A stretch of 36,042 nt of DNA from a virus, in the IMG/VR virus record IMGVR_UViG_3300027896_000122, positions 1 through 36,042 of that record; one strand, 5' to 3'. Made by a program: the position numbers and the translations under genes. The notes under the pieces were generated by a model. The model did no database searches. It was not told the origin of the DNA and worked only from the letters and a program-made list of their open reading frames with translations. How positions within the stretch are numbered: position 1 is the stretch's first letter; each line of letters opens with the position of its first letter. Positions 1 through 36,042 of the stretch are shown in pieces.

Positions 1-257
1 GGACCTTCTGATGTCGGTGCTGAAGTTGCAGGTGCAGTAAATACTGCTATCAATGGTACAATTAATGTTCTTCAAAAAATTGATCCTTCAAATATTCATA
101 AATTAGTTGATAGTCAGATAGCTGATAATGGTATAGTTCTTACTATAAGTACATATAGATGTACTATAGCTGGTGTTTTAAGTCTTTTTCCTGTAATAAT
201 TCAACCACCTGATACAACAGATCCTTATATTATAGATATGGATACAATAGGAGGTTC
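1..257. repeat. Terminal direct repeat, left copy (contig closes into a circle)
   Basis: Bases 1-257 repeat at 35786-36042 with three substitutions (52 A/G, 91 A/G, 136 G/C). The reading frame of the tail-fibre gene runs correctly across the junction. The overlap shows the molecule is circular, circularly permuted or terminally redundant, with a unit of about 35,785 bp. A P22-like headful-packaging phage gives this kind of overlap at assembly. Whether the repeat exists physically or only in the assembly cannot be decided here. Confidence 0.9.
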
Positions 258-498
258 TTTTCTACAAGTTGACAATCTTGATCATACTGCATCAAGAGAA
301 TTATGGACATCAAATGCACATACAGGCGATGTTTTGATCTTACAAAATGTTGGTTCATACGGTTTTGACATGCAAGAATTACCAAATTGTACATCAGCAC
401 ATTTTACAATACCAACATCACCAGCTTATGCAGTATATCAATTTTTATGCATTGATGGTGCAACTAATCATTGGGCGAAACTTGTACCAGTAGCATAA
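1..498 (+). CDS. Short tail-fibre protein, C-terminal part (continues from 35483)
   Basis: This is the end of a gene that starts at 35483; joined across the circle it gives 266 residues. The part here begins in frame with GPSDVG and stops at TAA 496-498. The last ~89 residues (from about base 229) resemble the C-terminus of the 958-residue collagen-like fibre at 15051-17927: both contain LILQN and end with CIDGATNHWA, and about half the aligned residues match by eye. A shared C-terminal domain in two fibre-like proteins suggests a receptor-binding tip or trimerisation module. The ATG of the next gene follows the stop directly. The tail-fibre role is inferred from the N-terminal half and from context. 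Confidence 0.8.
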   Translation, partial: GPSDVGAEVAGAVNTAINGTINVLQKIDPSNIHKLVDSQIADNGIVLTISTYRCTIAGVLSLFPVIIQPPDTTDPYIIDMDTIGGSFLQVDNLDHTASRELWTSNAHTGDVLILQNVGSYGFDMQELPNCTSAHFTIPTSPAYAVYQFLCIDGATNHWAKLVPVA

Positions 499-1017
499 AT
501 GGAAAGAACTATATTACAAATTATATTAGGTGGAAAAATACCTATCTATCTACAATCATGGATCAATTCAGTCATTGAATATGCTCAAAAAAATAACTGG
601 AAATATGAACAAATAACTAATTGTGATAAGTATTTTTCTGAACCTACTTTCGGATCTAATTTATCTAAATTCATTTGGTATCGACATGTATCAGACTATA
701 TAAGAACAAAAATTCTATCAACAATTCCTAATATATGTTATATTGATTGGGACGTATTTTTAGATCCTTTAACGTTTAAAATACCAGACGAATCAAGAAT
801 AGCTTTTGGTAAAGAATCATCTATTGACTGTATCTTATATAATGGTAATGATCTTGAGGCTTACAAATATATTCATAGTTTAATTGAATTACCTAATTTT
901 AACATGCATTACAATTTATCAGATACTTTGAAACAATTTAGTAAGAAAAATAAAGTCCAAATTCTCAACAATTATTGGCATTTAGATAATTGCAGATTTA
1001 ATTACTTAAACAAATAA
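499..1017 (+). CDS. Putative glycosyltransferase, GT32/GT-A-like, compact
   Basis: A 172-residue protein. The pattern SDYIRTKILS (from about residue 65) followed by YIDWDVFLD (81-89) matches the D-x-x-R plus DxD signature of the DXD-sugar (GT32-like) glycosyltransferases, where DxD (D83, D85 here) binds the metal and nucleotide sugar. It is shorter than most family members and lacks an obvious membrane segment, so it would act in the cytoplasm. ATG follows the previous stop codon without a clear ribosome binding site, which suggests translational coupling to the tail-fibre gene. It precedes a radical SAM gene and a second glycosyltransferase. Fold assignment rests on these motifs only; acceptor and donor are unknown. 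Confidence 0.6.
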   Translation: MERTILQIILGGKIPIYLQSWINSVIEYAQKNNWKYEQITNCDKYFSEPTFGSNLSKFIWYRHVSDYIRTKILSTIPNICYIDWDVFLDPLTFKIPDESRIAFGKESSIDCILYNGNDLEAYKYIHSLIELPNFNMHYNLSDTLKQFSKKNKVQILNNYWHLDNCRFNYLNK

Positions 1018-1028
1018 TAAGGTCTTCT

Positions 1029-1874
1029 ATGATAATAGTTGACTGGAACTTTAATAGATCTTGCAATTTTAATTGTGATTATTGCCTCAATGATCAAAGT
1101 GATAAAAAAGACAAAGGTCCCTCATTCAACATAATCAAATCTGCAATTGACAGACTCACTAAAAATTATTTCTTTGCTTTTACAGGTGGTGAATTACTCC
1201 TCAATCCTGACTTTGTCAAAATAGCCTCTTATATCACAAATCGTTTCAATATCAGTCTTTATACTAACTTATCATTACCTTTAGATAATTTTATTGCTCA
1301 TATAGATCCAAATAAAGTAAAATATATTGTAGGCTCTCTCCATATAAAAGAGAGAACAAGACTAAATATTCCTCAATCTCAAATAGTAAATCAATACAAG
1401 AAATTAAAAGATGCAGGATTTAAAAATATCTATATCATCCAAATTTGTGATGACTATGCTCTATCAATTTATGATGAATTATATGATTGGTATAAAGAAT
1501 ACAATATAATAATAATTCCCAATAGATTAAAGACATCTCCTTGGTATAAATTCAACTATACAGATCAACAATTAAAAGACATGAATAGACTGTCACAACT
1601 TTCAAATTGTGATATGTTTCCATATGAGATGGCAATATATAAAAATAATAAAGATCAACCATGTATAGCTGGTTGTCAATATATAGTAATTTTATCTAAT
1701 GGTCGGATTGTAAAATGTTGGGGTGATTTAAAATCATTAGGAAATTTTTATATCGCTCCTTATTTTGACGAATCAATATTTAAGGAATCAATATGTAAAG
1801 TTGAGAATTGTGCTTGTTATCCTTGTAGATTAAATATGAGAGTTTTGCAAGATGCAGATAATAATAATAACTAA
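1029..1874 (+). CDS. Radical SAM enzyme with SPASM/twitch-like cysteine-rich C-terminus
   Basis: A 281-residue protein. It has the radical SAM cluster motif CxxxCxxC at C12, C16 and C19 (CNFNCDYC), the GGE motif at 53-55, and a C-terminal set of cysteines (C212, C216, C230, C256, C261, C263, C266) around SNGRIVKCWG. That layout fits a SPASM- or twitch-type domain holding one or more auxiliary iron-sulphur clusters, common in enzymes that modify peptides or proteins. It lies between two glycosyltransferase genes in the virion-gene block, and its last 23 bases overlap the next gene. A protein- or sugar-modifying role is inferred; the substrate is unknown. The Asn-rich tail is largely a by-product of the overlap. 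Confidence 0.85.
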   Translation: MIIVDWNFNRSCNFNCDYCLNDQSDKKDKGPSFNIIKSAIDRLTKNYFFAFTGGELLLNPDFVKIASYITNRFNISLYTNLSLPLDNFIAHIDPNKVKYIVGSLHIKERTRLNIPQSQIVNQYKKLKDAGFKNIYIIQICDDYALSIYDELYDWYKEYNIIIIPNRLKTSPWYKFNYTDQQLKDMNRLSQLSNCDMFPYEMAIYKNNKDQPCIAGCQYIVILSNGRIVKCWGDLKSLGNFYIAPYFDESIFKESICKVENCACYPCRLNMRVLQDADNNNN

Positions 1875-2511
1875 GGACCAACGACAATATATACCAGAAT
1901 TCGCATATCAATTAGATAGTCAATTACCAGATATTAAAAGGTTATTTGTAATAGATAAAGATACAGATGAATCTAAATTAGTTTTAAAGGCATTACATGA
2001 AAATTTTATTGAACATACTGAGACATCAGGTTTTTGTGCTGGTAAATGCCGTGATATCGGACTTAATACATTCGGCATTGACGATACTATCTTTTTTGAT
2101 GGTGATAGAATCCCGCATGGATTAGGTTTAGAAATAGTTGGAAAAGCATTAGAATATGATGCCTGCTTAATGAAAGTTGAGAATGATTTTAGAAAATACT
2201 TTACTATAGACTTTATTAAGCATCCAAAGATAGGAATATATAGGAATGATTTTTTCTCTTGTGGTCTATTAATCAAAAAAGAATTAATTAATAAAATACG
2301 AATTTTACAAAATGGTAGACTATTTAATGATATATTTGATGGGATCTGGGGAGAGGAAGATCGTTATTTAGGTGACGTCATTCATACTTTAAAAGGATCA
2401 GTTGGATTATTTCCAAATAGTTGTTATGTTGAAGGTGGATTTAATTCAACTTTTGACCAGAATACTTATAGACAACAATGTCTTAAAAGAGCGGCATTGT
2501 ACAAAGGATAA
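1852..2511 (+). CDS. Putative GT-A glycosyltransferase
   Basis: A 219-residue protein starting with a beta-strand (MQIIIITKDQ), as in GT-A folds. DGDR at 83-86 is a DxD-type metal/nucleotide-sugar site, and WGEED at 166-170 matches the W-G-x-E-D motif of family 2 and family 7 C-terminal domains, where the acidic residue often acts as base. The start overlaps the radical SAM gene, so the two are probably translated together. The next gene, the gp4-like tail factor, follows after 3 bases. It probably transfers a sugar to a virion protein or another phage-specified acceptor; this is inference from context. Two cysteines (FCAGKC) near residue 61 are of unknown purpose. Confidence 0.65.
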   Translation: MQIIIITKDQRQYIPEFAYQLDSQLPDIKRLFVIDKDTDESKLVLKALHENFIEHTETSGFCAGKCRDIGLNTFGIDDTIFFDGDRIPHGLGLEIVGKALEYDACLMKVENDFRKYFTIDFIKHPKIGIYRNDFFSCGLLIKKELINKIRILQNGRLFNDIFDGIWGEEDRYLGDVIHTLKGSVGLFPNSCYVEGGFNSTFDQNTYRQQCLKRAALYKG

Positions 2512-2514
2512 AAT

Positions 2515-3375
2515 ATGACACAAGCAATTTATGGTAGTAATTATGAATATGGGTTAAGTCCTGTTTATAAAGATGATGAAATTCCTCCTGGACCTACACC
2601 ACCAGTTCCTCCACCAACTCCTATAACTTGTAATGATGGTACTATCATTACACCTACTAAAGTGCTCGATATTATTAGACGAGCATTAAGATTATTAGGT
2701 GTGTTAGTCACAAATGAAACAGTTGATGGACCGGAAGCTGCCGATTGTCTTGAACAACTTAACTGGATGGTAGATAGCTGGGCTAATGAAAAATTATTAT
2801 GTTTTGTCATAGACAATGAGATATTTAATCTTAATGGTGGACAGGGACATTATACAATTGGACCAGATGCTACTAAAGATTTTAATGCATATTTGCCTTT
2901 ACACATTGAATCTGCTTTTGTGAGAGATACTACATCTGGTTATCAAAATGATTATAAATTAGATATTATTCCAAATGCTAAATGGCAAGATGTATTCCAA
3001 AAAGGAATAGGTTCAACTTATCCACGATGGTTATGTTTTCATAGAACTTGGCCTTATGGTTCTATAGATATCTGGCCCGTACCTACAAGATCATTACAAT
3101 TATCATTATCTGTCTGGCATCAAGTACAGAAATGGTTAAGACTTTCTGATATTGTATGTTTACCACCAGGATATAAAACTGCTTTAGCTTATAATCTCGC
3201 AATAGCTATGGCTGGGGAATACGGTCAATCAATAAATCCTATCATTAGTAATGAGGCAAAACGTACAAAAGCGGTAATAAAAACTATAAATCAGGAACAG
3301 ATTTTAATGTCTACAGATGCATATGTATTACCAAGACGTGCTTTCAATCTATTATCTGGTCTCTATTCAACTTAG
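2515..3375 (+). CDS. P22 gp4-like tail accessory (head completion) protein
   Basis: A 286-residue protein. From about residue 48 (VLDIIRRALRLLGV) through ADCLEQLNWMVDSWANE to the end it resembles the tail accessory factors of the P22 gp4 type, which add to the portal after DNA packaging and link it to the tail. It is longer than P22 gp4 (166 residues) and carries a proline-rich N-terminal extension (PPGPTPPVPPPTP, about 25-37). Its place just before the gp10-like gene matches P22 order. Ribosome binding site AAGGA lies upstream of the ATG. Family assignment is by eye. Confidence 0.75.
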   Translation: MTQAIYGSNYEYGLSPVYKDDEIPPGPTPPVPPPTPITCNDGTIITPTKVLDIIRRALRLLGVLVTNETVDGPEAADCLEQLNWMVDSWANEKLLCFVIDNEIFNLNGGQGHYTIGPDATKDFNAYLPLHIESAFVRDTTSGYQNDYKLDIIPNAKWQDVFQKGIGSTYPRWLCFHRTWPYGSIDIWPVPTRSLQLSLSVWHQVQKWLRLSDIVCLPPGYKTALAYNLAIAMAGEYGQSINPIISNEAKRTKAVIKTINQEQILMSTDAYVLPRRAFNLLSGLYST

Positions 3376-3384
3376 GGAATATAA

Positions 3385-5166
3385 ATGACAACATTACCTT
3401 TTATAACTGGTACAGGACAAGGTAGATCTAGAGCCGTTGATGGTCAAGACCTCATCAACTTCTATCTAGAATACTATGGTGTAACTGGCCAGAAAATATC
3501 TGAATATTACGGTGCTACTAAACAAGCTAAAAGTAATATGGTAGCATATCCTACACCAGGATTAACAATTTTTAATCAAGACATTATTGCTGACTCTAAA
3601 GTCCGTTGTATTTATACGACATCAACAAATAGAATGTTTGCTGTTATTGGAAATCAATTTTTAGAATATAATATTCATGGTGCAAAAGTTTATAAAGGAA
3701 CATTGTTGACCTCAAATGGAACTGTTTCAATGATCGATTGTGGTAATGGTTCTGGTAGAGGTTTCGGTATTTGCTTAGTTGATGGAGAATATGGATATAA
3801 TTATAATTTAACAAATAATACATTCGAACAAATAACTGATCCAAGTTTTCCAAAATATCCTGGAACAGTTATTTTCATGAACGGTTTCTTTATTATAAAT
3901 GAATTAAACTCTGCTCGTTTTTGGTACTCTCAACAATATGATTGTCTTGACTGGGGCGATATTGATGTCCAATATTTAACTAAAGCATATTTACCTCTAC
4001 AAACAGGTTCTGTTGATATTTTATTGGAATTTGCAAACGGATTACCTGCTGTAAATGATACAATAATATCTGCTGGTATGTGGGTCACAATAACAAATCA
4101 GGCGTCTTATTTAGCTGGTGTCTGTCAATCTTATAATCCAACTACTGGTCATGCGACAATTTCTATTAATAATTTTGGCGGAGCAGGATCTCTAGATATC
4201 TGGACAGTTGATTTCTATCTAGGCACAACAAGATTCTATACAGCAGAAGGATTGCCTGACAGTATAAAAACAATAACTACTATAAGAAATGATTTGTGGA
4301 TAATGGGTGAGTTATCTACAGAGATATGGTATAATCCTATTGGTTATGATATAAATAATCCATTTGTTAAGAGAACTACATTCTTGAATAATGGAACTGT
4401 TGCGACAAATTCAGTAGCTACAAATGGAGATAATTTGTTTTGGTTAGGATCATCCGCTGCAGGATTTGGACAGATATGGATGAGTGATAATTATACACCG
4501 ATGAAGATATCGTCAAATTCAATAGATCATATGATTGAATCTTTGAATAATATAAAAGATGCAATTGGTTGGTGTTATACCCAAGATGGTCATAATTTTT
4601 ATGTCTTATCTTTTAACTCAGGCAATAAGACATTAGTATATGATATATCTACAAAAGAATGGCATGAACGGGCGGAGTGGGATGGTAAAAAATATAATAG
4701 ATATATTGGTAATTGTCATACATTATTTAATGATTTGAATTTAGTTGGAGATTATAGAAATTCAAATATATATAAGTTAGATTTGAATCAATATACTGAG
4801 AATAGTAGGATAGTTCGACGATTGATAACTGGACCACATATACATCAGGATAGGCAAAGAATATTTTTTAAAGAATTTGAGGTTGATATTGAGAGAGGTG
4901 TTGGTCTTGATGGTAAAAATTCTATAATGGTTGATCCTCAAGCATTTTTAGTCATGAGTGATGATGGTGGATATACATGGTCAAATGAATATTGGGGTCA
5001 GATAGGTGGTCGAGGAGCTTATAAGACAAGATTACATTGGCATCGATTAGGTATGAGTAGAGATCGTATATTCAGATTGATAATAAGTGATCCAGTAAAA
5101 ATAGTTTTAATCGGTGCACGCGGAGATATATCAATTGAAAACGCAAATGCACCTGTAGAAGGGTAA
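3385..5166 (+). CDS. P22 gp10-like packaged-DNA stabilisation protein
   Basis: A 593-residue protein resembling the P22 gp10 tail-hub/DNA stabilisation family: an early DGQDLINFYLE segment, YPTPGLTIF near residue 53, and late NEYWGQIGGRG and LHWHRLGMSRDRIFRL, which are typical of the family's end. It would close the head and form part of the tail tube. It is longer than P22 gp10 (472 residues). An insertion at about 207-278 contains GVCQSYNPTTG and ends in DIWTVDF; its pattern resembles the beta-domains found three times in the collagen-like fibre at 15051. AGGGA precedes the ATG. Confidence 0.75.
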   Translation: MTTLPFITGTGQGRSRAVDGQDLINFYLEYYGVTGQKISEYYGATKQAKSNMVAYPTPGLTIFNQDIIADSKVRCIYTTSTNRMFAVIGNQFLEYNIHGAKVYKGTLLTSNGTVSMIDCGNGSGRGFGICLVDGEYGYNYNLTNNTFEQITDPSFPKYPGTVIFMNGFFIINELNSARFWYSQQYDCLDWGDIDVQYLTKAYLPLQTGSVDILLEFANGLPAVNDTIISAGMWVTITNQASYLAGVCQSYNPTTGHATISINNFGGAGSLDIWTVDFYLGTTRFYTAEGLPDSIKTITTIRNDLWIMGELSTEIWYNPIGYDINNPFVKRTTFLNNGTVATNSVATNGDNLFWLGSSAAGFGQIWMSDNYTPMKISSNSIDHMIESLNNIKDAIGWCYTQDGHNFYVLSFNSGNKTLVYDISTKEWHERAEWDGKKYNRYIGNCHTLFNDLNLVGDYRNSNIYKLDLNQYTENSRIVRRLITGPHIHQDRQRIFFKEFEVDIERGVGLDGKNSIMVDPQAFLVMSDDGGYTWSNEYWGQIGGRGAYKTRLHWHRLGMSRDRIFRLIISDPVKIVLIGARGDISIENANAPVEG

Positions 5167-11364: not shown

Positions 11365-14300
11365 ATGGCCAACAAACCTGGTAAAGGTGCAAAGGGCAAA
11401 AGTTCTGCTCCTCAAAAATTAAAACCACCCATTATTACGCCTCCAGTTGAAGGTAGTGAAAAACTATTTTCAAATCCCTGGCAAAAATACTTTGACGAAT
11501 TATCAGAATTTGGTGGCTTATCTGGTTATTCAGGTACTACCGGTATAAGTGGATATTCTGGAATAGGATCTCAAGGACCTATTGGACCCAAAGGCGATCA
11601 AGGACAACAAGGTATACAAGGTAATGCCGGATTTAGTGGTTATTCGGGCATTTCAGGTTATTCTGGACAAAGCGGATATTCAGGCATCATAGGACTATCA
11701 GGATATTCAGGAATATCTGGATTATCAACTACAGGATTTCCTTATTATCTTCGAGTAACAGGATCAACTATTGATATTTATGGTAGTAATTATCCTTATG
11801 GTGATTCTCCTCAATATAAAGATGATGATGCAAGTCCCAAGCCTACTTATTTTGCTTTAACAAGAGAAACACCAACTGAAAGTCAAATAGATAATTCAGA
11901 TTCTGTGTCCTCAGGTACATCACCTATTTTAATCAAAACATACGTCACTAACCAAAATGATCCTAATGTAACAATTATACCTGCAGGACTTTGGCTCTTT
12001 AATTTCTATGCATATTCTAATAATGTAACTGGTTCTAATACATTACTTTATAAAGTTTATAAAAGAGCAATAGATAATACTGAAACATTATTATTTCAAT
12101 TGAATAGTTCAAATTTGTCAGGATCAACATCATTAATATCAGATAAATATTATGGTAATGCTTTTTCAATTATATCAACTGATAGAATTGTTTTAAAAGT
12201 ATATATTGCAACTGATCAAGTTTCAAGTAGGACTATTCATTATTTTAATTCTGGAACAACATATGCATCTTATTTTACATCACCTTTAACAGGTGCACAA
12301 CAAGGAATATCTGGTTATTCTGGTGCGTCAGGATTATCATTTTTAGATCAAAATAACAATCCACAACCAATTGCAAAACAAACATTATGGTGGAATGAGA
12401 ATGTACAAGCATTATTTGCATTAGTTGATGGTAGTGATAAATGGGTACAAATATCTGCAGGATCAAAACAAGGTGCATCTGGATATTCAGGAATGAGTGG
12501 AGATAATCCTGGTAGTAGTGGTATTTCAGGATATAGTGGAACTATAGGTCAATCAGGATATTCGGGAGTAGGAATTTCAGGATATAGTGGTCAATCAGGT
12601 TATTCAGGTATAGGAACTTCTGGATATTCTGGAGTAGGTCAATCAGGTTATTCGGGAAATAATGGAAGTTCAGGTTATTCAGGAATACAAGGATTTAGTG
12701 GTTATTCTGGACAAGTAGGAACTTCAGGCTATTCTGGAATTTCAGGATATTCAGGAATAGGAACTTCAGGTTATTCAGGACAATCTGGATATTCAGGTTA
12801 TTCAGGACAGATCGGTCCACAAGGTGATCAAGGTATATCCGGTTATTCAGGAATTCCTGGAACAATAGGAACTTCTGGATATTCTGGAATATCAGGTCTT
12901 TCAGGTTTTAGTGGTTATTCAGGACAATCTGGATATTCAGGCGTTATAGGCCCACAAGGTATTTCTGGATATTCAGGTCAAATAGGACATTCCGGATATA
13001 GTGGAATCGATGGTAGTACCGGTCAATCCGGTTATTCAGGTATAAACGGTACTAATGGAACGAATGGTTCAAGCGGCTATAGCGGCATAAGTGGCTTTTC
13101 CGGTTATTCAGGTATAAACGGTACTAATGGAACGAATGGTTCAAGCGGCTATAGCGGCATAAGTGGCTTTTCCGGTTATTCAGGTCAATCAGGATATTCA
13201 GGAATTAGTGGTTATTCTGGATCAATAGGAATAAGTGGATATTCCGGTATTGTTGGAACGTCAGGATATTCGGGTCAAAGTGGTTATTCGGGCATATCTG
13301 GTTATAGTGGACAATCAGGTTATTCGGGTATAGGTACATCAGGATATTCGGGATTGTCAGGTTATAGTGGCATAAGTGGATATTCTGGAATAGGTACATC
13401 AGGATATTCTGGACAAAGTGGCTATTCAGGCATATCTGGTTACAGTGGACAATCAGGTTATTCTGGTATAGGTACATCAGGATATTCTGGACACAGTGGT
13501 TATTCTGGATCAATAGGAATAAGTGGATATTCCGGTATTGTTGGAACGTCAGGATATTCGGGAATTTCTGGATATTCTGGAATAGGTACATCCGGTTATA
13601 GTGGCATTTCAGGCTTTAGTGGATATTCTGGAACAAATGGTACAACAGGTCAAAGCGGTTACAGTGGAATATCAGGCTTTTCCGGATATTCTGGCATTGG
13701 AACATCAGGTTACAGCGGTGCCCAATTTGTCGGTTCAAGCGGCTATAGTGGAATTTCAGGCTTTTCTGGTTATTCAGGTATAAGCGGATATTCTGGCATA
13801 GGAACATCAGGTTATTCTGGACAATCAGGATATTCAGGAGTAGGAACATCAGGTTATTCTGGGACATCAGGTTATTCTGGTGCTGGCATCAGCACTGCAG
13901 GTTCTCTGAATTATATGCCTAAATTTACAGCAGTGACTACTATAGGTAATAGTCAGATAATTGATGATAATACAAGAATAAATATTAAAGTTTCTACAAA
14001 TGCTTTTATAACTTTAAATCAAACTGTTAGAGATTGGTGGAAATTGGCAACATCTATATCTGGCAATATTTATGCCACTATTAATAATGGTGATATTTAT
14101 ATGCAAACAAACGGAATCGGAGACTTTATTGCACAATCACAAACATCAAGAAATTGGCACGGAATTTGTTGCGCACCAAATGGTAATATATATGCATCAG
14201 TGACATCTATTACTGTTGGTGATATTTATATGCGGACTGCGGGTTCAGGAACATTTAATCCTTTAAGTCAGACAGCTAGAAATTATTTAGGTATGTGTGC

Positions 14301-14907
14301 TACTGCTACTAATAATATCTATGTTGGTGAATATAATGGTGATATTTATATGCAGACTGCAGGTTCAGGAACTTTTAATCCTTTAAGTCAGACAGCTAGA
14401 AAATGGTATGGATTATGTGTTGCACCAAATGGTAATGTTTATGCATGTGATCGTGGTGGTGATATATACATGCAAACTGGTGGTTCTGGAACTTTTAATC
14501 CTTTAAGTCAGACATCTCGTGATTGGTTAGGTCTTGCTGCTGATACTAATGGTGATATTTATGCAACAACTTATAATGGTACTAATGGTGATATTTATAA
14601 ACAAACTGGTGGTGTTGGTAATTTTGTTGCATTAAGTCAAACTGCTCGTGGATGGGCAGGAATAACAATATCAAATGGTAATATATATGCTTCTGCTTAT
14701 GGTGCCAGTATCTATGAACAAATCAATATATCTTTAGGTAATGGTAAACTTAGTATTGGTATTCCTACACCAACTACTGCGATACAAATTCTATTAAGTT
14801 TAATTCCAAATTATGCTAATAATGCTGCTGCTATAGCAGGCGGTTTAACTGTTGGTGCTTTTTATAGAACAAATGGTGATCCAGATACTATTTGCATTGT
14901 TCATTAA
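11365..14907 (+). CDS. Giant collagen-like tail fibre with propeller-like C-terminus
   Basis: A 1180-residue protein. Gly-X-Y triplets, mostly Gly-Tyr-Ser alternating with Gly-(Ile/Gln/Thr/Phe)-Ser, fill about residues 51-122 and 371-843, interrupted by a globular domain (125-310). About residues 860-1110 hold five or more ~45-residue repeats (NGDIYMQTAGSGTFNPLSQT type) resembling beta-propeller blades. The C-terminus (AAAIAGGLTVGAFYRTNGDP) is a motif I associate with phage fibre proteins. Serine in nearly every third position replaces collagen's proline. It would form a long trimeric rod carrying adhesive domains. AGAGG precedes the ATG. Internal DNA repeats make length variation likely. Confidence 0.8.
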   Translation: MANKPGKGAKGKSSAPQKLKPPIITPPVEGSEKLFSNPWQKYFDELSEFGGLSGYSGTTGISGYSGIGSQGPIGPKGDQGQQGIQGNAGFSGYSGISGYSGQSGYSGIIGLSGYSGISGLSTTGFPYYLRVTGSTIDIYGSNYPYGDSPQYKDDDASPKPTYFALTRETPTESQIDNSDSVSSGTSPILIKTYVTNQNDPNVTIIPAGLWLFNFYAYSNNVTGSNTLLYKVYKRAIDNTETLLFQLNSSNLSGSTSLISDKYYGNAFSIISTDRIVLKVYIATDQVSSRTIHYFNSGTTYASYFTSPLTGAQQGISGYSGASGLSFLDQNNNPQPIAKQTLWWNENVQALFALVDGSDKWVQISAGSKQGASGYSGMSGDNPGSSGISGYSGTIGQSGYSGVGISGYSGQSGYSGIGTSGYSGVGQSGYSGNNGSSGYSGIQGFSGYSGQVGTSGYSGISGYSGIGTSGYSGQSGYSGYSGQIGPQGDQGISGYSGIPGTIGTSGYSGISGLSGFSGYSGQSGYSGVIGPQGISGYSGQIGHSGYSGIDGSTGQSGYSGINGTNGTNGSSGYSGISGFSGYSGINGTNGTNGSSGYSGISGFSGYSGQSGYSGISGYSGSIGISGYSGIVGTSGYSGQSGYSGISGYSGQSGYSGIGTSGYSGLSGYSGISGYSGIGTSGYSGQSGYSGISGYSGQSGYSGIGTSGYSGHSGYSGSIGISGYSGIVGTSGYSGISGYSGIGTSGYSGISGFSGYSGTNGTTGQSGYSGISGFSGYSGIGTSGYSGAQFVGSSGYSGISGFSGYSGISGYSGIGTSGYSGQSGYSGVGTSGYSGTSGYSGAGISTAGSLNYMPKFTAVTTIGNSQIIDDNTRINIKVSTNAFITLNQTVRDWWKLATSISGNIYATINNGDIYMQTNGIGDFIAQSQTSRNWHGICCAPNGNIYASVTSITVGDIYMRTAGSGTFNPLSQTARNYLGMCATATNNIYVGEYNGDIYMQTAGSGTFNPLSQTARKWYGLCVAPNGNVYACDRGGDIYMQTGGSGTFNPLSQTSRDWLGLAADTNGDIYATTYNGTNGDIYKQTGGVGNFVALSQTARGWAGITISNGNIYASAYGASIYEQINISLGNGKLSIGIPTPTTAIQILLSLIPNYANNAAAIAGGLTVGAFYRTNGDPDTICIVH
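13030..13173 (+). repeat. Exact 72-bp tandem duplication inside the collagen-like gene
   Basis: A 72-bp unit is present twice with no differences, encoding a 24-residue stretch containing INGTNGTNGSSGYSG. It keeps the reading frame. Looser copies of the 18-bp GYSGxS-coding unit surround it. Perfect identity, against diverged neighbouring repeats, points to a recent duplication. Confidence 0.9.
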
Positions 14908-14918
14908 TAGGAGGAAAT

Positions 14919-15047
14919 ATGGATAAAATATATCAACAAGAAGAATTCATTAATTACGATTATCATATGGTTAATGAACAATTAATTGATGATAATGAAA
15001 TTTTAGAAAATGAAGAATGTATTTTGGAAAACAATGTTAAAGGGTAA
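14919..15047 (+). CDS. Small acidic protein (42 aa) between the two fibre genes
   Basis: It starts at the ATG at 14919, with a perfect AGGAGG four bases upstream, and runs to the TAA at 15045-15047, three bases before the next gene. The product (MDKIYQQEEFINYDYHMVNE... ENNVKG) is rich in Glu, Asp and Asn, with one Cys and no signal peptide or membrane segment. The strong ribosome binding site and exact fit between two large genes argue that it is real. Function unknown; a small assembly helper for the long fibres is a guess from position. Confidence 0.7.
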   Translation: MDKIYQQEEFINYDYHMVNEQLIDDNEILENEECILENNVKG

Positions 15048-15050
15048 AAT

Positions 15051-17927
15051 ATGTCGTCATTCCCATTAAATCCTTATAATGGTCAAATATACACAAATGC
15101 TTTAGGAACAAGTTATCGTTTTGATACATCAGTGGGACCAGCTTTTGGTAGTTGGGTCATTGACAGTCAAGAATTAATTGGATTTTCTGGATATTCAGGT
15201 ATATCAGGCTATAGCGGATATTCAGGCTTAAGTGGCTTTTCAGGTTATTCAGGACAAATAGGACCACAAGGTTTGTCTGGATATAGTGGAATTGGAAAAT
15301 CAGGCTATTCTGGAGTTTCTGGCTTTGCCGGTGATAGATATACTACTTTTTCTACTACTACTCTTACATTAGCAGTAACACCAATAACATTGTTTGTAGA
15401 AACAGGATTGGCTTTGTCTATAGGACAAACTGTTATAGTAGCAAATGATGATACTCATAAATTTGAAGGTGAGATTACTAATTATAATTCAGGTACAGGA
15501 CAATTAGATGTCAATGTAACATCTATTACCGGCACAGGAACTTTTTCTTCTTGGGTAGTAGCACTTACAGGAGCACCAGGACCGCAAGGTATATCTGGTT
15601 TTTCAGGATTTAGTGGATATTCAGGACAGATAGGTGAATCAGGATATTCAGGAATAAGTGGACATTCAGGATATTCAGGAATTGATGGTGAGTCTGGATA
15701 TTCAGGAATAAGTGGGTTCTCAGGTTATTCAGGTCAGAGTGGATATAGTGGACAATCAGGATATTCAGGAGATAGTGGTATTTCAGGTTATTCTGGGCAA
15801 AGCGGTTATTCTGGATATTCAGGTCAGAGTGGATATAGTGGGATTTCTGGTTATAGCGGAGTCGGGACATCAGGATATTCAGGAGTCGGTTCTTCAGGAT
15901 ATAGTGGACAATCAGGAACATCAGGCTATAGTGGTAGGTCTGGATATTCTGGAATGTCAGGCTCAGGCGTTTCAGGCTATTCTGGCGCCGTAGGTGTCCA
16001 GGGACCTATCGGATTATCTGGATATTCTGGCAATAGTGGATATTCAGGTAACAGTCCTATATTGTATGGTAGTTCTATTTCTACATTAATATTAAGCCCT
16101 GGTAGTAAAAGTTTTGTCATAACTACAGCAAATCCTGGTTTTATTGTCAATCAATATGTAACGATAATGAATAGTGCGACAAATTACATGCAAGGTGTAG
16201 TATCTGCATTTTCATATCCAAATATGACAGTAGTAGTAGATTTTGTGTCAGGTGCTGGATCTTTCTCAGCATGGTTCATATTCTTGCAGGGACGACAAGG
16301 CTATAGTGGATATTCAGGCATAGGATTGAGCGGCTATTCAGGGACCAATGGATTGTCCGGATATTCAGGTGTTAGTGGTTATTCTGGGGCTCAATTTGTG
16401 GGAAGTTCAGGAATGTCAGGCTATTCAGGTTCTCAAGGAACTCAAGGTATATCTGGTTATTCGGGAATTGGTACATCCGGATATAGTGGAAAAATAGGAA
16501 CTTCAGGATATTCAGGAATTGGTACATCTGGATATTCTGGATTAAGTGGATTTAGTGGTTCTGGAATATCTGGCTATAGTGGAAAATCAGGACAAGGAGG
16601 TCCAACTGGTGAAAGTGGATATAGTGGTTATTCAGGTATTTCGGGAGCAGCTTTTGTAGGATCTTCAGGATATAGCGGAATGCCTGGTGCTTTTACTGCT
16701 TCTGGATATTCAGGAACTAATGGTGCATCGGGTTATTCTGGATATTCAGGAATGAGAACAAGTTATTATGGCACATGCAGTAATACTATTACAATGTCAT
16801 TAGGTTACTTATATTATATTGGAATAGAAAATGGAGCAATTCCAAATATAGAAGAATATGCATCTTTTCAAGTTGGTGATTATATATCAATTGCTCGGTC
16901 TGATCCAAATCAATCTACATATATGTTAGGTTCTGTTCTTTATGTACAATATAATTCATTTGCTATATTATCAGTTATAGTGAATGTAGATTATATGGAA
17001 GGTTCTGGAACTTATGATGACTGGACAGTTCATTTAATCGGCAAACAAGGTAGATCTGGTTATTCAGGAATGTCAGGCTATTCAGGAATATCGGGATTTA
17101 GCGGTCAAAATCCTGGTGCTTCAGGCTATTCTGGACGATCAGGTTATTCTGGCTATTCAGGTCAATCAGGTTATTCAGGTAAAGCTTTTGTTGGATCTTC
17201 AGGTTATTCAGGCATTTCTGGTTATTCTGGAATATCAGGATTTTCAGGTGCTAATCCAGGTCCTCAAGGTCAAAGCGGTTATAGCGGTTATTCTGGAATA
17301 AATGGCAGTGCCGCTATATCCGGTACATCTGGATATGTTGCGCAATTTACTGGCATATCTGGTATAGGTAATTCACAATTATTGTTAGCAACAGAGACAC
17401 CATTAATAACACAAATTGATGTTCAATCTGCATCATTAAATTTTACATTTCAAGGTGGATCTAATTTTACACAATTAATAGATGGTCGACTAGAAATATC
17501 TGGAACATCTTCTACTATTGACTTTGGTGATAATGGTCTTTCTGGTCAAGGTATCTATTCTACAACAGATGTAACTACTACTACACCAAGAATAAATGTC
17601 TCTAATGTATTTAATACAAATCCATTATTTGTTCAATTTCCAGATTCTTTTCCAGACTTTTATCTATTAGATATGTCTGTCGGTGCTACTTTTCTACAAA
17701 TAGACTCTTTGCAACATACTAATGATAAACAATTATGGACAACAAATTCTCATACTGGTGATATTCTTATATTGCAAAATATCGGTTCTTTTGCTTTTTA
17801 TATGATGGCTTTGCCAAGTTGTACAGCACAATCATGGTTAATACCTACTACACCTACATATCAAACATATATGTTTATATGTATTGATGGTGCTACTAAT
17901 CATTGGGCAGTAATAACGACACCATGA
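15051..17927 (+). CDS. Collagen-like tail fibre with interspersed beta-domains
   Basis: A 958-residue protein. An N-terminal domain (MSSFPLNPYNGQIYTN, then FGSWVID) leads into GYSG-type collagen triplets at about 43-98, 178-335, 420-575 and 673-770. Between them sit three beta-domains of ~80-95 residues, each ending in a pattern like GxGxFSxWxVxLxG, and the region from 771 is non-collagenous. The last ~89 residues match the C-terminus of the 266-residue tail fibre (CIDGATNHWA). This suggests a flexible rod carrying binding modules and a shared tip. It shares its triplet style with the preceding 1180-residue fibre. AAAGGG precedes the ATG. It ends in an ATGA overlap with the next gene. Confidence 0.8.
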   Translation: MSSFPLNPYNGQIYTNALGTSYRFDTSVGPAFGSWVIDSQELIGFSGYSGISGYSGYSGLSGFSGYSGQIGPQGLSGYSGIGKSGYSGVSGFAGDRYTTFSTTTLTLAVTPITLFVETGLALSIGQTVIVANDDTHKFEGEITNYNSGTGQLDVNVTSITGTGTFSSWVVALTGAPGPQGISGFSGFSGYSGQIGESGYSGISGHSGYSGIDGESGYSGISGFSGYSGQSGYSGQSGYSGDSGISGYSGQSGYSGYSGQSGYSGISGYSGVGTSGYSGVGSSGYSGQSGTSGYSGRSGYSGMSGSGVSGYSGAVGVQGPIGLSGYSGNSGYSGNSPILYGSSISTLILSPGSKSFVITTANPGFIVNQYVTIMNSATNYMQGVVSAFSYPNMTVVVDFVSGAGSFSAWFIFLQGRQGYSGYSGIGLSGYSGTNGLSGYSGVSGYSGAQFVGSSGMSGYSGSQGTQGISGYSGIGTSGYSGKIGTSGYSGIGTSGYSGLSGFSGSGISGYSGKSGQGGPTGESGYSGYSGISGAAFVGSSGYSGMPGAFTASGYSGTNGASGYSGYSGMRTSYYGTCSNTITMSLGYLYYIGIENGAIPNIEEYASFQVGDYISIARSDPNQSTYMLGSVLYVQYNSFAILSVIVNVDYMEGSGTYDDWTVHLIGKQGRSGYSGMSGYSGISGFSGQNPGASGYSGRSGYSGYSGQSGYSGKAFVGSSGYSGISGYSGISGFSGANPGPQGQSGYSGYSGINGSAAISGTSGYVAQFTGISGIGNSQLLLATETPLITQIDVQSASLNFTFQGGSNFTQLIDGRLEISGTSSTIDFGDNGLSGQGIYSTTDVTTTTPRINVSNVFNTNPLFVQFPDSFPDFYLLDMSVGATFLQIDSLQHTNDKQLWTTNSHTGDILILQNIGSFAFYMMALPSCTAQSWLIPTTPTYQTYMFICIDGATNHWAVITTP

Positions 17928-22147: not shown

Positions 22148-22462
22148 TCACTCTTCCAATATACAAAATATATCTGACTCGTGCATTACAAGTAAATCTT
22201 CTTTATCATCTAACTGAATTGCAACAAATCTATTGTATAGAACAATATCACCTACTTTTACTTGCATTGGTATTCGAAATTCTTTTATATCTGTTCTCTC
22301 TGCTATAGACGTTATAGCTTTACCAGGTCCAATAGCTACAACAATACCTTTTTCAGGATCTGGTTTAGATGTTGCGGATTGAGGTATATAAATTCTGCCT
22401 ATTTTGTCAGGATTTTGAATTCTCTTAACTAAAACACGATTATCAAGTAGTTTGGATATCAT
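22148..22462 (-). CDS. groES: GroES-like co-chaperonin
   Basis: A 104-residue protein read from the ATG at 22462, which has AAAAGGAG just upstream; a longer frame opens at 22507 but lacks such a signal. It has the Cpn10 layout: LLDNRVLVKRIQN, then GRIYIPQSATSKPDPEKGIV with VVAIGPGK, then VKVGDIVLYNRF and a final LLVMHESDIFCILEE. GroES caps the GroEL folding chamber; phage versions such as T4 gp31 adapt host GroEL to fold coat protein. No GroEL gene is present, so it would work with host GroEL. Its first 28 codons are duplicated upstream in a chimeric reading frame. Confidence 0.85.
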   Translation of the reverse strand: MISKLLDNRVLVKRIQNPDKIGRIYIPQSATSKPDPEKGIVVAIGPGKAITSIAERTDIKEFRIPMQVKVGDIVLYNRFVAIQLDDKEDLLVMHESDIFCILEE

Positions 22463-22482
22463 TTGTTCTCCTTTTAAACTCA
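22381..22482. repeat. Source copy of ~102-bp groES 5' segment
   Basis: Covers the first codons and ribosome binding site of groES. It is repeated at 22736-22838 with few substitutions, one inserted T and an 18-bp inverted block (22427-22444 here is the reverse complement of 22783-22800). Confidence 0.9.
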
Positions 22483-22817
22483 AAATTAATACAACCAAAT
22501 TCTGCATTAGTGACTAAATTTCCTTGATATTGTTCACCATCAATAATAGTAGCTTCTCCTTTTTGGGGTACTTTAAAAAATGATAATTTTGGTGATAAAC
22601 AAATTTTTGCTAATGGTAATTGTGTAACATCACCATTATTACAATCATCTAATGGATATAAAACATTCGATATTCCTATTGGAAAATCAATAATAACATT
22701 ATCAGGTATTTGCCACCATTCACAATTTTGACAGTGAGGTATATAAATTCTGACTATTTTGTCAGGATTTTGAATTCTCTTAGATAATCGTGTTTTAGTT
22801 AGTAGTTTGGATATCAT
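22443..22817 (-). CDS. Chimeric reading frame: GroES N-terminus fused to the body of an interrupted gene
   Basis: A 124-codon frame. Residues 1-28 (MISKLLTKTRLSKRIQNPDK...) copy the GroES N-terminus. The remaining 96 (from CQNCEWWQIPDNVII) belong to a different protein whose own N-terminus survives at 22814-22915. Removing the 137 bp between the two CQNCEWW copies would restore one protein of about 111 residues. The GroES part cannot fold alone; the other part has a CxxC and no recognised family. The ATG has AGGAGA upstream, so the chimera could be expressed. It may be a genuine rearrangement or an assembly product of two strains. Confidence 0.6.
   Translation of the reverse strand: MISKLLTKTRLSKRIQNPDKIVRIYIPHCQNCEWWQIPDNVIIDFPIGISNVLYPLDDCNNGDVTQLPLAKICLSPKLSFFKVPQKGEATIIDGEQYQGNLVTNAEFGCINFEFKRRTNDIQTT
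22701..22733. repeat. 33-bp direct repeat flanking the groES insertion (copy 1)
   Basis: Identical to 22838-22870. The pair brackets the inserted groES copy and encodes CQNCEWWQIPD on the minus strand. Confidence 0.9.
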
Positions 22818-33204: not shown

Positions 33205-34470
33205 ATGGCAGATACCAGAGTAACTCCATTAGAAATTACGCGAAAATTCCTTGCTGTTTTCCACAGCAATGTTGTTTTCGCTAAGAATCTCAATCATGAC
33301 TATGAAAAGAATTTCGGTTCTCAAATGGGTTTTGACGGACAAAAAACTGGTCCTGTATTAAACATTCGTGACCCGATTCAGGCAACTGTTCGTACCAGTT
33401 GGGCAATGCAGCAGCAAGATATCACTGAAACTTATCACACTCTTACTATTGATACAGTACGTGGTGTTGATTTGAAATTCAGTGATGCAGATCTTGCTCT
33501 TAGCGTTGATGATTTCGTTCCTCGTTATATTGAATCACCAGCAAAAAAACTTGCCTCTATAGTAGACCAAGTAACTGCAACATATATGCTTGCAAACATT
33601 CCTAATGCTATTGCTGCGTCAGGTCTTGCTGTTCCTACTACTATTGATACTTGGATGGATGCAAAAGCATGTTTGGGTGCACAGTTAATACCTCAGGGTG
33701 ATCCGATTAATTGTGCTATTGGTCCTCAAATGGAACGTAAGATGGTTGCTGGATTAACACCTCTCCAGTTCAATCCTCAGCAATCTATCAGTGACATGTT
33801 CTTAAAAGGTGCTTTCTCGAATGCTATCGGTGTAGATTGGTATATATCACAACTTATTCCTGCTCTTACAACTGGTTCGGAAACTAACACATCGCCAGTT
33901 GTTGGAACATTTGTTGCCGGTGCTCCTACATCTCTTCCTTATGCTTCAGCATCTACTTCCACAGCAACTTGGGCTGCTGGTCAGACTTTCACTATTGCTG
34001 GTCTTTATGACATCAATTTTGAAACAAAATCAGTATATCCTTGGTTAAAACAGTTCGTTATTACAACTGCCAATACAGCTTCTTCGAGTACTGGTACTTT
34101 AACAATTCTTCCTGGAATTGTTTTTGATACTACTTCTCCAGTCCAGAATTGCTATAAGGCAAGTGGTTCAATTGACGGTGTTGCAATTGTTCTTGGCGCT
34201 ATGACTACACCTACATCAGTTCCTACAACTGCATCAACAGCTTATCAGAATGCTTATATGTGGCATCCTGATTCATTTGCCTTTGCATCTGTGCCGTTGA
34301 TTCAGCCTAAGGGACTTGATATGGCTTCGGTTGCAACAGTTGATAATCTTTCCTTCCGTTTCTTAAGAGGTTTTGATATTGCCAATGCTAGAATGCTATC
34401 CCGTATGGATATATTCTTCGGTGTTGCGCAAATTCGTCCTCAATGGGCTGTAAAGATTCAAACAGTATAA
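33205..34470 (+). CDS. Major capsid (coat) protein, P22 type
   Basis: A 421-residue protein, close to P22 gp5 (430). The beginning (PLEITRKFLAVFHSNVVFAK) and GQKTGPVLNIRDPIQATVRT are typical of the P22 coat family with the HK97 fold. A DVDFVPRYIE-like segment (DDFVPRYIESPAKKLASIVD) and the late SFAFASVPLIQPKG, RIF-type end (RMDIFFGVAQIRPQW) also fit. It has a higher share of C- and G-ending codons than its neighbours, as expected for the most expressed gene. AAAGGA precedes the ATG, and a strong terminator follows 12 bases after the stop. Confidence 0.9.
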   Translation: MADTRVTPLEITRKFLAVFHSNVVFAKNLNHDYEKNFGSQMGFDGQKTGPVLNIRDPIQATVRTSWAMQQQDITETYHTLTIDTVRGVDLKFSDADLALSVDDFVPRYIESPAKKLASIVDQVTATYMLANIPNAIAASGLAVPTTIDTWMDAKACLGAQLIPQGDPINCAIGPQMERKMVAGLTPLQFNPQQSISDMFLKGAFSNAIGVDWYISQLIPALTTGSETNTSPVVGTFVAGAPTSLPYASASTSTATWAAGQTFTIAGLYDINFETKSVYPWLKQFVITTANTASSSTGTLTILPGIVFDTTSPVQNCYKASGSIDGVAIVLGAMTTPTSVPTTASTAYQNAYMWHPDSFAFASVPLIQPKGLDMASVATVDNLSFRFLRGFDIANARMLSRMDIFFGVAQIRPQWAVKIQTV

Positions 34471-34482
34471 GCAATAAAATTT

Positions 34483-34504
34483 AGAGGGATAGAAATATCC
34501 CTCT
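34483..34504 (+). terminator. Intrinsic terminator after the coat gene
   Basis: A 9-bp perfect stem AGAGGGATA/TATCCCTCT with a GAAA tetraloop, followed by ATTTTGTATT. Placed just after the coat gene, it may lower expression of the following genes or protect the coat mRNA 3' end. Confidence 0.8.
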
Positions 34505-34560
34505 ATTTTGTATTACTTTAATTTTGTAACAAGTTAACAATTAAAAAGGATTAAAATATT

Positions 34561-34779
34561 ATGGCAGACACTGAAAGAATTGGACATGGAACACCTGACG
34601 GAATGTATTTTGGTCTCACTGCGACAGAGAAAATCGGTTTCTACGGAAAAGCACCGGTTGTTCAACCAATAACTATTACTGCACTTGTACCAACGACTGA
34701 GACGACAACTACACTCGGTACATGTGTCAATACGATCATTGCTGATTTGAAAACATTGGGATTGATTGCATCGGCTTAA
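34561..34779 (+). CDS. Small head fibre/decoration-type protein, 72 aa
   Basis: MADTERIGHGTPDGMYFGLT then ATEKIGFYGKAPVVQPI: the P-D-G ... G-x-x-A-T-x-K-I-G-F-Y-G-x-x-P-V-V-Q-P pattern is widespread in phages, often at the end of head-fibre proteins or as short decoration-like proteins after the coat gene. The C-terminus is a helix (CVNTIIADLKTLGLIASA) suited to trimerisation. AAAGGA precedes the ATG, and the leader strongly resembles that of the coat gene. GTG of the next gene lies 8 bases after the stop. Confidence 0.65.
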   Translation: MADTERIGHGTPDGMYFGLTATEKIGFYGKAPVVQPITITALVPTTETTTTLGTCVNTIIADLKTLGLIASA

Positions 34780-34787
34780 GGAGAAAA

Positions 34788-35486
34788 GTGAAGTTAGCGA
34801 TAGCGACACCATTTTATAAATCTGCGGAAGTCCCATATGTGACATCTCTTATTAAGAGTGTCAAGTTACTTGATGATCTAAAAATTACTTGGGACTTTTT
34901 CACAGTAAATGGTACATATATCGATAATGCGAGAAATCTACTTGTCGATAAATTCTATCAAACTGACTTCACTGATCTCTTATTCATTGATTCTGATTTA
35001 TCTTGGAATATAGAGGGACTCTTACATTTATTGCGGAGTCCCTTTGATTTAACTGGTGGTGCATATCTAAGAAAAAATGATTGGGAAAGTTATACTACTA
35101 AAATTAAACAAGATGAAAATGGAATTATAATTCAAGATCCAGAAACTGGTTTAATTGAAGTCAACTTTCTCTCAACTGGCTTTTTAAAAATATCAAAATA
35201 TTGCATCAATAAAATGATTGATGCTTTTAAAGATAATTGGTATTTTGATAAAGGTAATAAAATAATTAATTTGTTTGAATGTCCTATTAAGAATAATACA
35301 CGATATTCTGAGGACATAACTTTTTCTGAAAAATGGATATCATTAGGCGGTAAATGTTACCTTGAACCCAGAATAAATTTCGGTCATACAGACATCAAAA
35401 CTTATTCTGGAAATTTTCATAAACATTTATCAAAACAAATTGAAATTGAGAGAATTCAACAAGCAATTAAAGGAGCAAAATTATGA
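34788..35486 (+). CDS. Putative family 2-like glycosyltransferase
   Basis: A 232-residue protein from a GTG start (34788) with AAGGAG upstream. The GT-A layout is clear: MKLAIATPFYKSAEVPYVTS, a DxD in LLFIDSDLSW (D68, D70), NARN near 47-50, and a late SEDITFSEKW (E175, D176) with PRINFGH ending in His200, matching the E-D ... H signature of many GT2-like phage glycosyltransferases. It lies between the head-decoration gene and the tail-fibre gene and overlaps the latter by ATGA, so it may act on one of these virion proteins. Donor and acceptor unknown. Confidence 0.7.
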   Translation: MKLAIATPFYKSAEVPYVTSLIKSVKLLDDLKITWDFFTVNGTYIDNARNLLVDKFYQTDFTDLLFIDSDLSWNIEGLLHLLRSPFDLTGGAYLRKNDWESYTTKIKQDENGIIIQDPETGLIEVNFLSTGFLKISKYCINKMIDAFKDNWYFDKGNKIINLFECPIKNNTRYSEDITFSEKWISLGGKCYLEPRINFGHTDIKTYSGNFHKHLSKQIEIERIQQAIKGAKL

Positions 35487-36042
35487 CAGCATATAGAGGT
35501 TTTAATCTAAATGATCCATCAACTCCTCCTCCTTGGGGAGCTACTGAACAACAAGTATTTGAGGACATGGCAAATACTATGCTTGCTGACTCTATCGGCG
35601 GAGTAAAAGACAATGCAGGTCATAAACATGGAACACTCTATAGTCCATCTGCTGGTGCTGTCATATCTGTAGACGGATCTTCAAATGTAGGTGTCGGTGT
35701 TGCTTCTACTGGCAATAAAGTCCATGTTGATGGTGATTGTAATATCACTTCCGGTCATCATTACAAAATCAATAATGTAAATGTGGGACCTTCTGATGTC
35801 GGTGCTGAAGTTGCAGGTGCAGTAAATACTGCTATCGATGGTACAATTAATGTTCTTCAAAAAATTGATCCTTCAGATATTCATAAATTAGTTGATAGTC
35901 AGATAGCTGATAATGGTATACTTCTTACTATAAGTACATATAGATGTACTATAGCTGGTGTTTTAAGTCTTTTTCCTGTAATAATTCAACCACCTGATAC
36001 AACAGATCCTTATATTATAGATATGGATACAATAGGAGGTTC
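35483..36042 (+). CDS. Short tail-fibre protein, N-terminal part (continues at base 1)
   Basis: ATG at 35483 with AAAGGAG upstream; open to the window edge and continued at 1-498 through the overlap, giving 266 residues. MTAYRGFNLNDPSTPPPWGA and GHKHGTLYSPSAG, then NVGVGVASTGNKVHVDGDCN with SGHHYKINNV, are typical of small phage tail-fibre proteins (G-H-K-H and V-x-V-D-G motifs near the start of the shaft). The shared C-terminal domain is described with the left part. It is placed inside the glycosyltransferase/radical SAM island, so it is one candidate substrate. Confidence 0.8.
   Translation, partial: MTAYRGFNLNDPSTPPPWGATEQQVFEDMANTMLADSIGGVKDNAGHKHGTLYSPSAGAVISVDGSSNVGVGVASTGNKVHVDGDCNITSGHHYKINNVNVGPSDVGAEVAGAVNTAIDGTINVLQKIDPSDIHKLVDSQIADNGILLTISTYRCTIAGVLSLFPVIIQPPDTTDPYIIDMDTIGG
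35786..36042. repeat. Terminal direct repeat, right copy
   Basis: Same as 1-257 apart from three substitutions (35837, 35876, 35921). Each changes an amino acid of the tail-fibre protein (Asn/Asp, Asn/Asp, Val/Leu). Confidence 0.9.

Follow-up and report, generated by a model that had tools for sequence, protein, structure and literature searches.

A cassette of three putative glycosyltransferases, a radical SAM enzyme and a fibre gene lies inside the virion gene block of a P22-like podovirus, and this cassette is real, conserved and linked to virion genes. The window, meaning the whole 36 kb contig (36,042 nt; IMG/VR record IMGVR_UViG_3300027896_000122), carries it between the coat and gp4 genes. 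We assign a probability of about 0.5 to the reading that the cassette glycosylates one of the phage's own proteins at a late stage (its fibre, a collagen-like protein or a decoration protein), with the radical SAM enzyme altering the sugar or, with lower probability, the residue to which it is attached.

The left border is a P22-type major coat protein (33205..34470, + strand; PF11651, 4.9e-17; phrog_283, 5.3e-50) and the right border is a gp4-like head-tail adaptor (2515..3375, +; phrog_12985, 1.5e-45; phrog_637, 2.3e-10), followed by a gp10-like head-closure gene (3385-5166; match to phrog_578). Between them are a 72-aa small protein with a KIGFYG motif, a candidate head decoration protein that is kept in the slot of close relatives (34561..34779, +); a GT-A-like enzyme, GTc (34788..35486, +); a fibre whose gene crosses the contig ends, with its N-terminal part at 35483..36042 (+) and its C-terminal part at 1..498 (+), the latter with a domain like that of the fibre at 15051-17927; an enzyme with a GT32 motif (SDYIRTKILSTIPNICYIDWD; 499..1017, +); the radical SAM enzyme (1029..1874, +); and a GT2-type enzyme, GTa (1852..2511, +). 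GTc and the fibre overlap by 4 nt, the radical SAM gene and GTa overlap by 23 nt, and the fibre and GT32-motif genes abut. A preliminary description had reported consecutive, mostly overlapping or abutting genes between P22-type coat and gp4 genes; every open reading frame of the block is present where it had been placed, and together with the overlaps and border profiles this confirms the observation of an enzyme block inside the virion genes. Its circular order also holds, despite the linear class of the record in IMG/VR. In particular, the contig ends (1-257 and 35786-36042) overlap over 257 bases with an identity of 254/257, and the join is independently supported because GTc, fibre, GT32, radical SAM and GTa genes are contiguous in the related contigs L003 and L008. 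The three mismatches in the overlap each alter one residue of the fibre protein (N/D, N/D and V/L) and are probably strain variation within the assembly. Elsewhere, the window has a gene for a GroES-like co-chaperonin (22148-22507; PF00166, 3.6e-15), and a GroES gene is likewise annotated in DSL-LC05 and MW202520.

Scanning with the coat protein brought up seven related contigs. L003 and L008 contain the same genes in the same order and place as the window (coat, small KIGFYG-type ORF, GTc, fibre, GT32, radical SAM, GTa and gp4), showing the cassette to be linked and syntenic in related phages rather than scattered. Their cassette proteins have 46-57% protein identity to those of the window, while the coats of the cassette phages are 76-81% identical to the window coat at the protein level, with synonymous sites saturated. 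In the L003-L008 comparison, the one unsaturated pair, as those with the window are saturated at synonymous sites, dN/dS is 0.115 for GTc, 0.114 for GT32, 0.148 for the radical SAM gene and 0.094 for GTa, compared to 0.071 for the coat and 0.053 for gp4; the four enzyme genes are under purifying selection. Because three divergent phages share the gene order and the enzyme genes have dN/dS values of 0.09-0.15, the cassette is more than a product of chance. Further, the GT32, radical SAM and GTa genes are found only together, in the window, L003 and L008, and a tblastn search of 50,697 phage records returned no match to these three proteins or to the L003 fibre.

The coat-gp4 junction is a variable slot. 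L006 has GTc as its sole cassette enzyme and L004 and L007 have no cassette enzyme there, and none of these three has a cassette-type fibre or extra glycosyltransferases; in L052, and in L053, which nearly duplicates it, the slot contains GTc, two small ORFs and a fibre that shares the N-terminus of the cassette fibre, next to which lies a different GT2-like gene. Among the more distant INPHARED phages compared (coat identity about 22-31%), the slot of MW202691 combines a gene for an HNH-type endonuclease with one in which GTc and a methyltransferase are fused, in MW202573 the methyltransferase is a separate gene next to GTc, and the remaining phages examined mostly have small hypothetical ORFs. 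The fusion gene occupies 3528-4805 of MW202691.1 (locus L044) and joins GTc to an apparent SAM methyltransferase. Judging by these slot contents, genes of the transferase type recur at the junction. Such variation, from methyltransferases in MW202691 and MW202573 to small ORFs only in other relatives, is what would be expected if the junction were merely a moron hotspot and the cassette genes were hitch-hikers without a joint pathway. That explanation is improbable, however, as four enzymes and a fibre keep an identical order in three divergent phages, three of the enzymes were found only together, and the recognisable inserted enzymes are mostly sugar or methyl transferases.

The three glycosyltransferase calls differ in strength. 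GTa, with its FFDGDR and GEED motifs, aligns to a GT2 family set of 30 sequences with an hhalign probability of 95.9 (E = 5.4e-9, 194 columns), where its DxD-type and ED motifs are aligned, compared to E values of 0.06-0.56 for other profiles; this profile comparison confirms the GT-A call of the preliminary description and assigns the enzyme to the GT2 type. An AlphaFold model of GTa from a three-sequence alignment had a pLDDT of 41 and was discarded. GTc, which has an ARN...DSDLSW motif, was described as GT2-like: it belongs to phrog_1574 (1.4e-18), a PHROG with no assigned function, and its phage relatives bear the depositor names glycosyltransferase, A197, mnn9-like and polysaccharide biosynthesis, but its own match to the GT2 profile is weak (hhalign probability 9.8), with two homologues matching the GT2 HMM at 1e-4 to 9e-4. 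The 499-1017 product is probably a GT32 enzyme, a motif-level call. All three phage copies retain SDxxRxx[IL]L...YxDwD, and a pattern of this type, composed after the sequence had been seen, occurs in 14 of 19 PF04488 proteins and in none of 1012 background ORFs; on the other side, the protein has no PF04488 hit and no whole-length profile match, and its profile-profile match covers just 21 columns (E = 0.018). Direct hhalign comparison of GTa or GT32 with GTc found no match, PDB sequence searches with the cassette glycosyltransferases gave chance-level hits or none, and 145 genomes of the phylum of G002 (Omnitrophota, locus L032) contained two weak GT2-like hits to GTa and none to GT32. Some phage glycosyltransferases are known to hypermodify DNA (excerpts of PMC12619734), and the same could be supposed here; this is hardly credible, since the genes sit in the head operon and no hydroxymethyl-pyrimidine pathway gene was recognised among the window ORFs scanned.

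The radical SAM call at 1029-1874 was upheld. The protein matches PF04055 at E = 2.5e-10, which passes the threshold set by Pfam; residues 12-19 read CNFNCDYC, and the three cysteines of its CX3CX2C cluster (C12, C16 and C19) are invariant in 12 aligned sequences. An AlphaFold model from that 12-sequence alignment has a pLDDT of 86 and a pTM of 0.86. The best Foldseek matches in the PDB are CteB (8.9e-10), a viperin-like enzyme, DesII, BlsE, anSME, SuiB, AbmM and BtrN, a set whose substrates range over peptides, nucleotides and sugars; the best viral matches are phage radical SAM proteins, including those of Campylobacter phages CP21, CPt10 and CP220. On the Pfam match and the predicted structure, membership of the superfamily is firm. 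A sequence search of the PDB gave only weak hits, and NCBIfam models matched weakly, none at cut-off, with the curated maturase models far below. Further, the description of the enzyme as SPASM-like is half borne out. The first half of the motif is present as C212-X12-G225-X4-C230, invariant in the three phages and within the CX9-15GX4C of the subfamily, but the second half is C256-X4-C261-X-C263 in place of the canonical CX2CX5CX3C and last C. Because this spacing is non-canonical, the protein was filed as a radical SAM enzyme with a C-terminal auxiliary-cluster domain rather than as SPASM; cysteines 194, 212, 230, 256, 261 and 263 are invariant across the three cassette phages.

The substrate of this enzyme is the point on which two readings diverge. 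It may modify the protein itself, for example by oxidising, epimerising or cross-linking residues in the fibre or the Ser/Tyr-rich collagen repeats, with the glycosyltransferases acting separately on the same protein. The fold matches to CteB, anSME and SuiB, which act on peptides or proteins, are consistent with this, as is the fibre gene within the cassette, and the closest Foldseek match in the PDB, CteB, speaks against a sugar substrate. CteB and SuiB carry a RiPP-recognition (RRE) domain. In contrast, the 281-aa cassette enzyme begins straight at the core strand, its model has no N-terminal RRE domain, no precursor peptide gene was recognised, the second half of its SPASM cysteine motif is non-canonical, and glycosyltransferase genes flank it on both sides, making modification of the protein itself a doubtful account of the enzyme, if one that merits attention. 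A sugar is somewhat favoured over a peptide as substrate by the absence of an RRE domain and by the glycosyltransferase genes found beside some distant relatives, and DesII and BtrN, which act on sugars or aminocyclitols, are among the structural matches. In particular, distant relatives adjoin glycosyltransferase genes at L030 (on both sides) and L032, both by Pfam, and at L016, L064 and L074, and others have no obvious such neighbour (L063, L065, L066 and L068) or lie in viral radical SAM arrays with no match to the cassette glycosyltransferase profiles (L011, L013 and L017). A consistent glycosyltransferase neighbourhood of the cellular relatives was considered and rejected, as it is present in some only. 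On the viral contig L016 (7303-9508), the radical SAM gene is between two short GT-like genes, with epimerase- and aminotransferase-like genes nearby; separately, L067 (361-3756), from a genome sample drawn around L032, encodes a 1131-aa protein with a radical SAM match.

Another account is that the cassette enzymes change the host's surface polysaccharide during infection, for superinfection exclusion or receptor masking. Pelagimyophages, whose genomes likewise contain cassettes of radical SAM genes, have glycosyltransferases for which such a role has been proposed (PMC7029224), and an Aerophobetes relative of the radical SAM enzyme is located between two glycosyltransferase genes in an LPS-like gene run. 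The cassette genes, however, overlap with virion genes and are placed among them, a position for which late expression would be expected, and the window has no recognised flippase or polyprenyl-linked Gtr-type partner; we consider the host surface an unlikely target.

The support for a virion protein as the target is gene position, co-occurrence and the presence of collagen-like proteins. The window encodes two giant collagen-like fibres that are candidate substrates, one with Gly-Tyr-Ser type repeats (11365..14907, +; PF01391, 2.2e-55) and a second at 15051..17927 (+; PF01391, 4.2e-45). Serine occupies 126 of 173 Y positions in the first and 106 of 144 in the second, together 232/317. SGYSG repeats occur across 11365-17927, with tyrosine in about one third of X positions and serine in most Y positions. 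Of the 7 phages that have GTc at the junction, 5 contain Gly-X-Y runs, and the 9 complete or long genomes lacking GTc contain none, a co-occurrence with a hypergeometric probability of about 0.005 if the phages were independent, which these lineages, mostly of one clade, are not. For example, the cassette fibres of L003 and L008 have a GPT/GPA collagen shaft, L052 has a collagen-like fibre rich in Gln-Thr, and L006 has SGYSG repeats in the KIGFYG-type protein adjoining GTc; MW202691 and MW202573 have GTc and no collagen run. Glycosylation is known for collagen-like bacterial proteins such as BclA (excerpts of PMC8968730). Because of this precedent, the co-occurrence of Gly-X-Y runs with GTc and the collagen repeats of the window, collagen-like or fibre proteins are the leading candidates for modification. 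Against a collagen target, the shaft has been replaced in the window's cassette fibre, which has none. Virion glycosylation is favoured by the pattern in which extra glycosyltransferases accompany the fibre in L052 and L053 and both are missing from L006, L004 and L007. It was also considered whether the small KIGFYG protein has a Thr-rich segment that tracks with GTc; this was rejected, as relatives without the glycosyltransferase are similar in Ser/Thr content.

Directly after the coat gene is a terminator-like hairpin with a T-rich tail (34482..34505, +, by folding), and a hairpin follows the coat in the window and in all seven relatives folded, with or without the cassette. Because of this hairpin, the cassette may be transcribed less than the coat, which would fit genes for enzymes.

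Overall, the proposed mechanism is a self-contained virion-modification cassette in which three GT-A-type enzymes would be made late, together with the head genes, and would assemble a short glycan on a virion protein at its hydroxyl residues, with the cassette fibre, the giant collagen-like fibres and the small KIGFYG protein beside GTc as the candidates. As the window has no recognised nucleotide-sugar genes, the sugar donors would come from the host. The radical SAM enzyme would add a step beyond ordinary sugar enzymes, most likely by oxidising, deoxygenating or epimerising the sugar independently of oxygen and less likely by acting on the attachment residue, and this step would precede completion of the glycan. 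Four elements of this scheme are inferences: that the genes are expressed late and together, that the target is a virion protein, that the steps occur in this order and that the radical SAM enzyme acts on a sugar. The preliminary description had proposed a phage pathway that modifies its own virion proteins; as a whole it is partly supported, with the linkage to virion genes and the collagen-like co-occurrence in its favour and the evidence on the radical SAM substrate leaning towards a sugar rather than a peptide. The more specific proposal, a virion glycan or sugar-protein linkage on fibre or collagen-like proteins that needs radical SAM chemistry, which would be an undescribed type of virion modification, is put forward tentatively. 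Phage radical SAM genes are common and their substrates are mostly unknown; here the substrate can be guessed and tested because gene order locks the enzyme to glycosyltransferases and a fibre in the head operon of three divergent phages. If the proposal is true, radical chemistry would join the few kinds of phage virion modification, and the cassette would offer a compact enzyme set for modifying collagen-like or fibre proteins.

Capsid glycosylation in mycobacteriophages is already known, as is the presence of radical SAM genes in pelagimyophages and in Campylobacter phages. In the open-licence literature, we found no paper tying a radical SAM enzyme to virion glycosylation, a weak negative. 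Che8 and Rita are the precedent for glycosylated phage capsids (cited in PMC11256854, in excerpt), and these actinobacteriophages and their relatives resemble the cassette phages in encoding glycosyltransferases, and their virion proteins carry glycans, as is proposed for the cassette phages; the excerpts mention no radical SAM enzyme there, a distinction drawn from description only. Pelagimyophages and Campylobacter group II phages share phage radical SAM genes with the window, including the structural match to the CP21, CPt10 and CP220 proteins, but have many such genes in hypervariable or interchangeable modules; the viral relatives L011-L023 have about 20-26% full-length identity to the cassette enzyme and no match to the cassette glycosyltransferase profiles. 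CteB, anSME, DesII, BtrN, AbmM and BlsE have a similar fold, with a radical SAM core and a C-terminal Cys-rich domain, whereas the cassette enzyme is at most 20% identical to them, has no RRE domain and carries CX12GX4C followed by CX4CXC. Bacillus BclA and mimivirus collagen, with which the source excerpts mention no radical SAM enzyme, are glycosylated and likewise Gly-X-Y proteins, whereas those of the window, whose Y position is often Ser or Thr, are phage fibres and candidate glycosylation targets.
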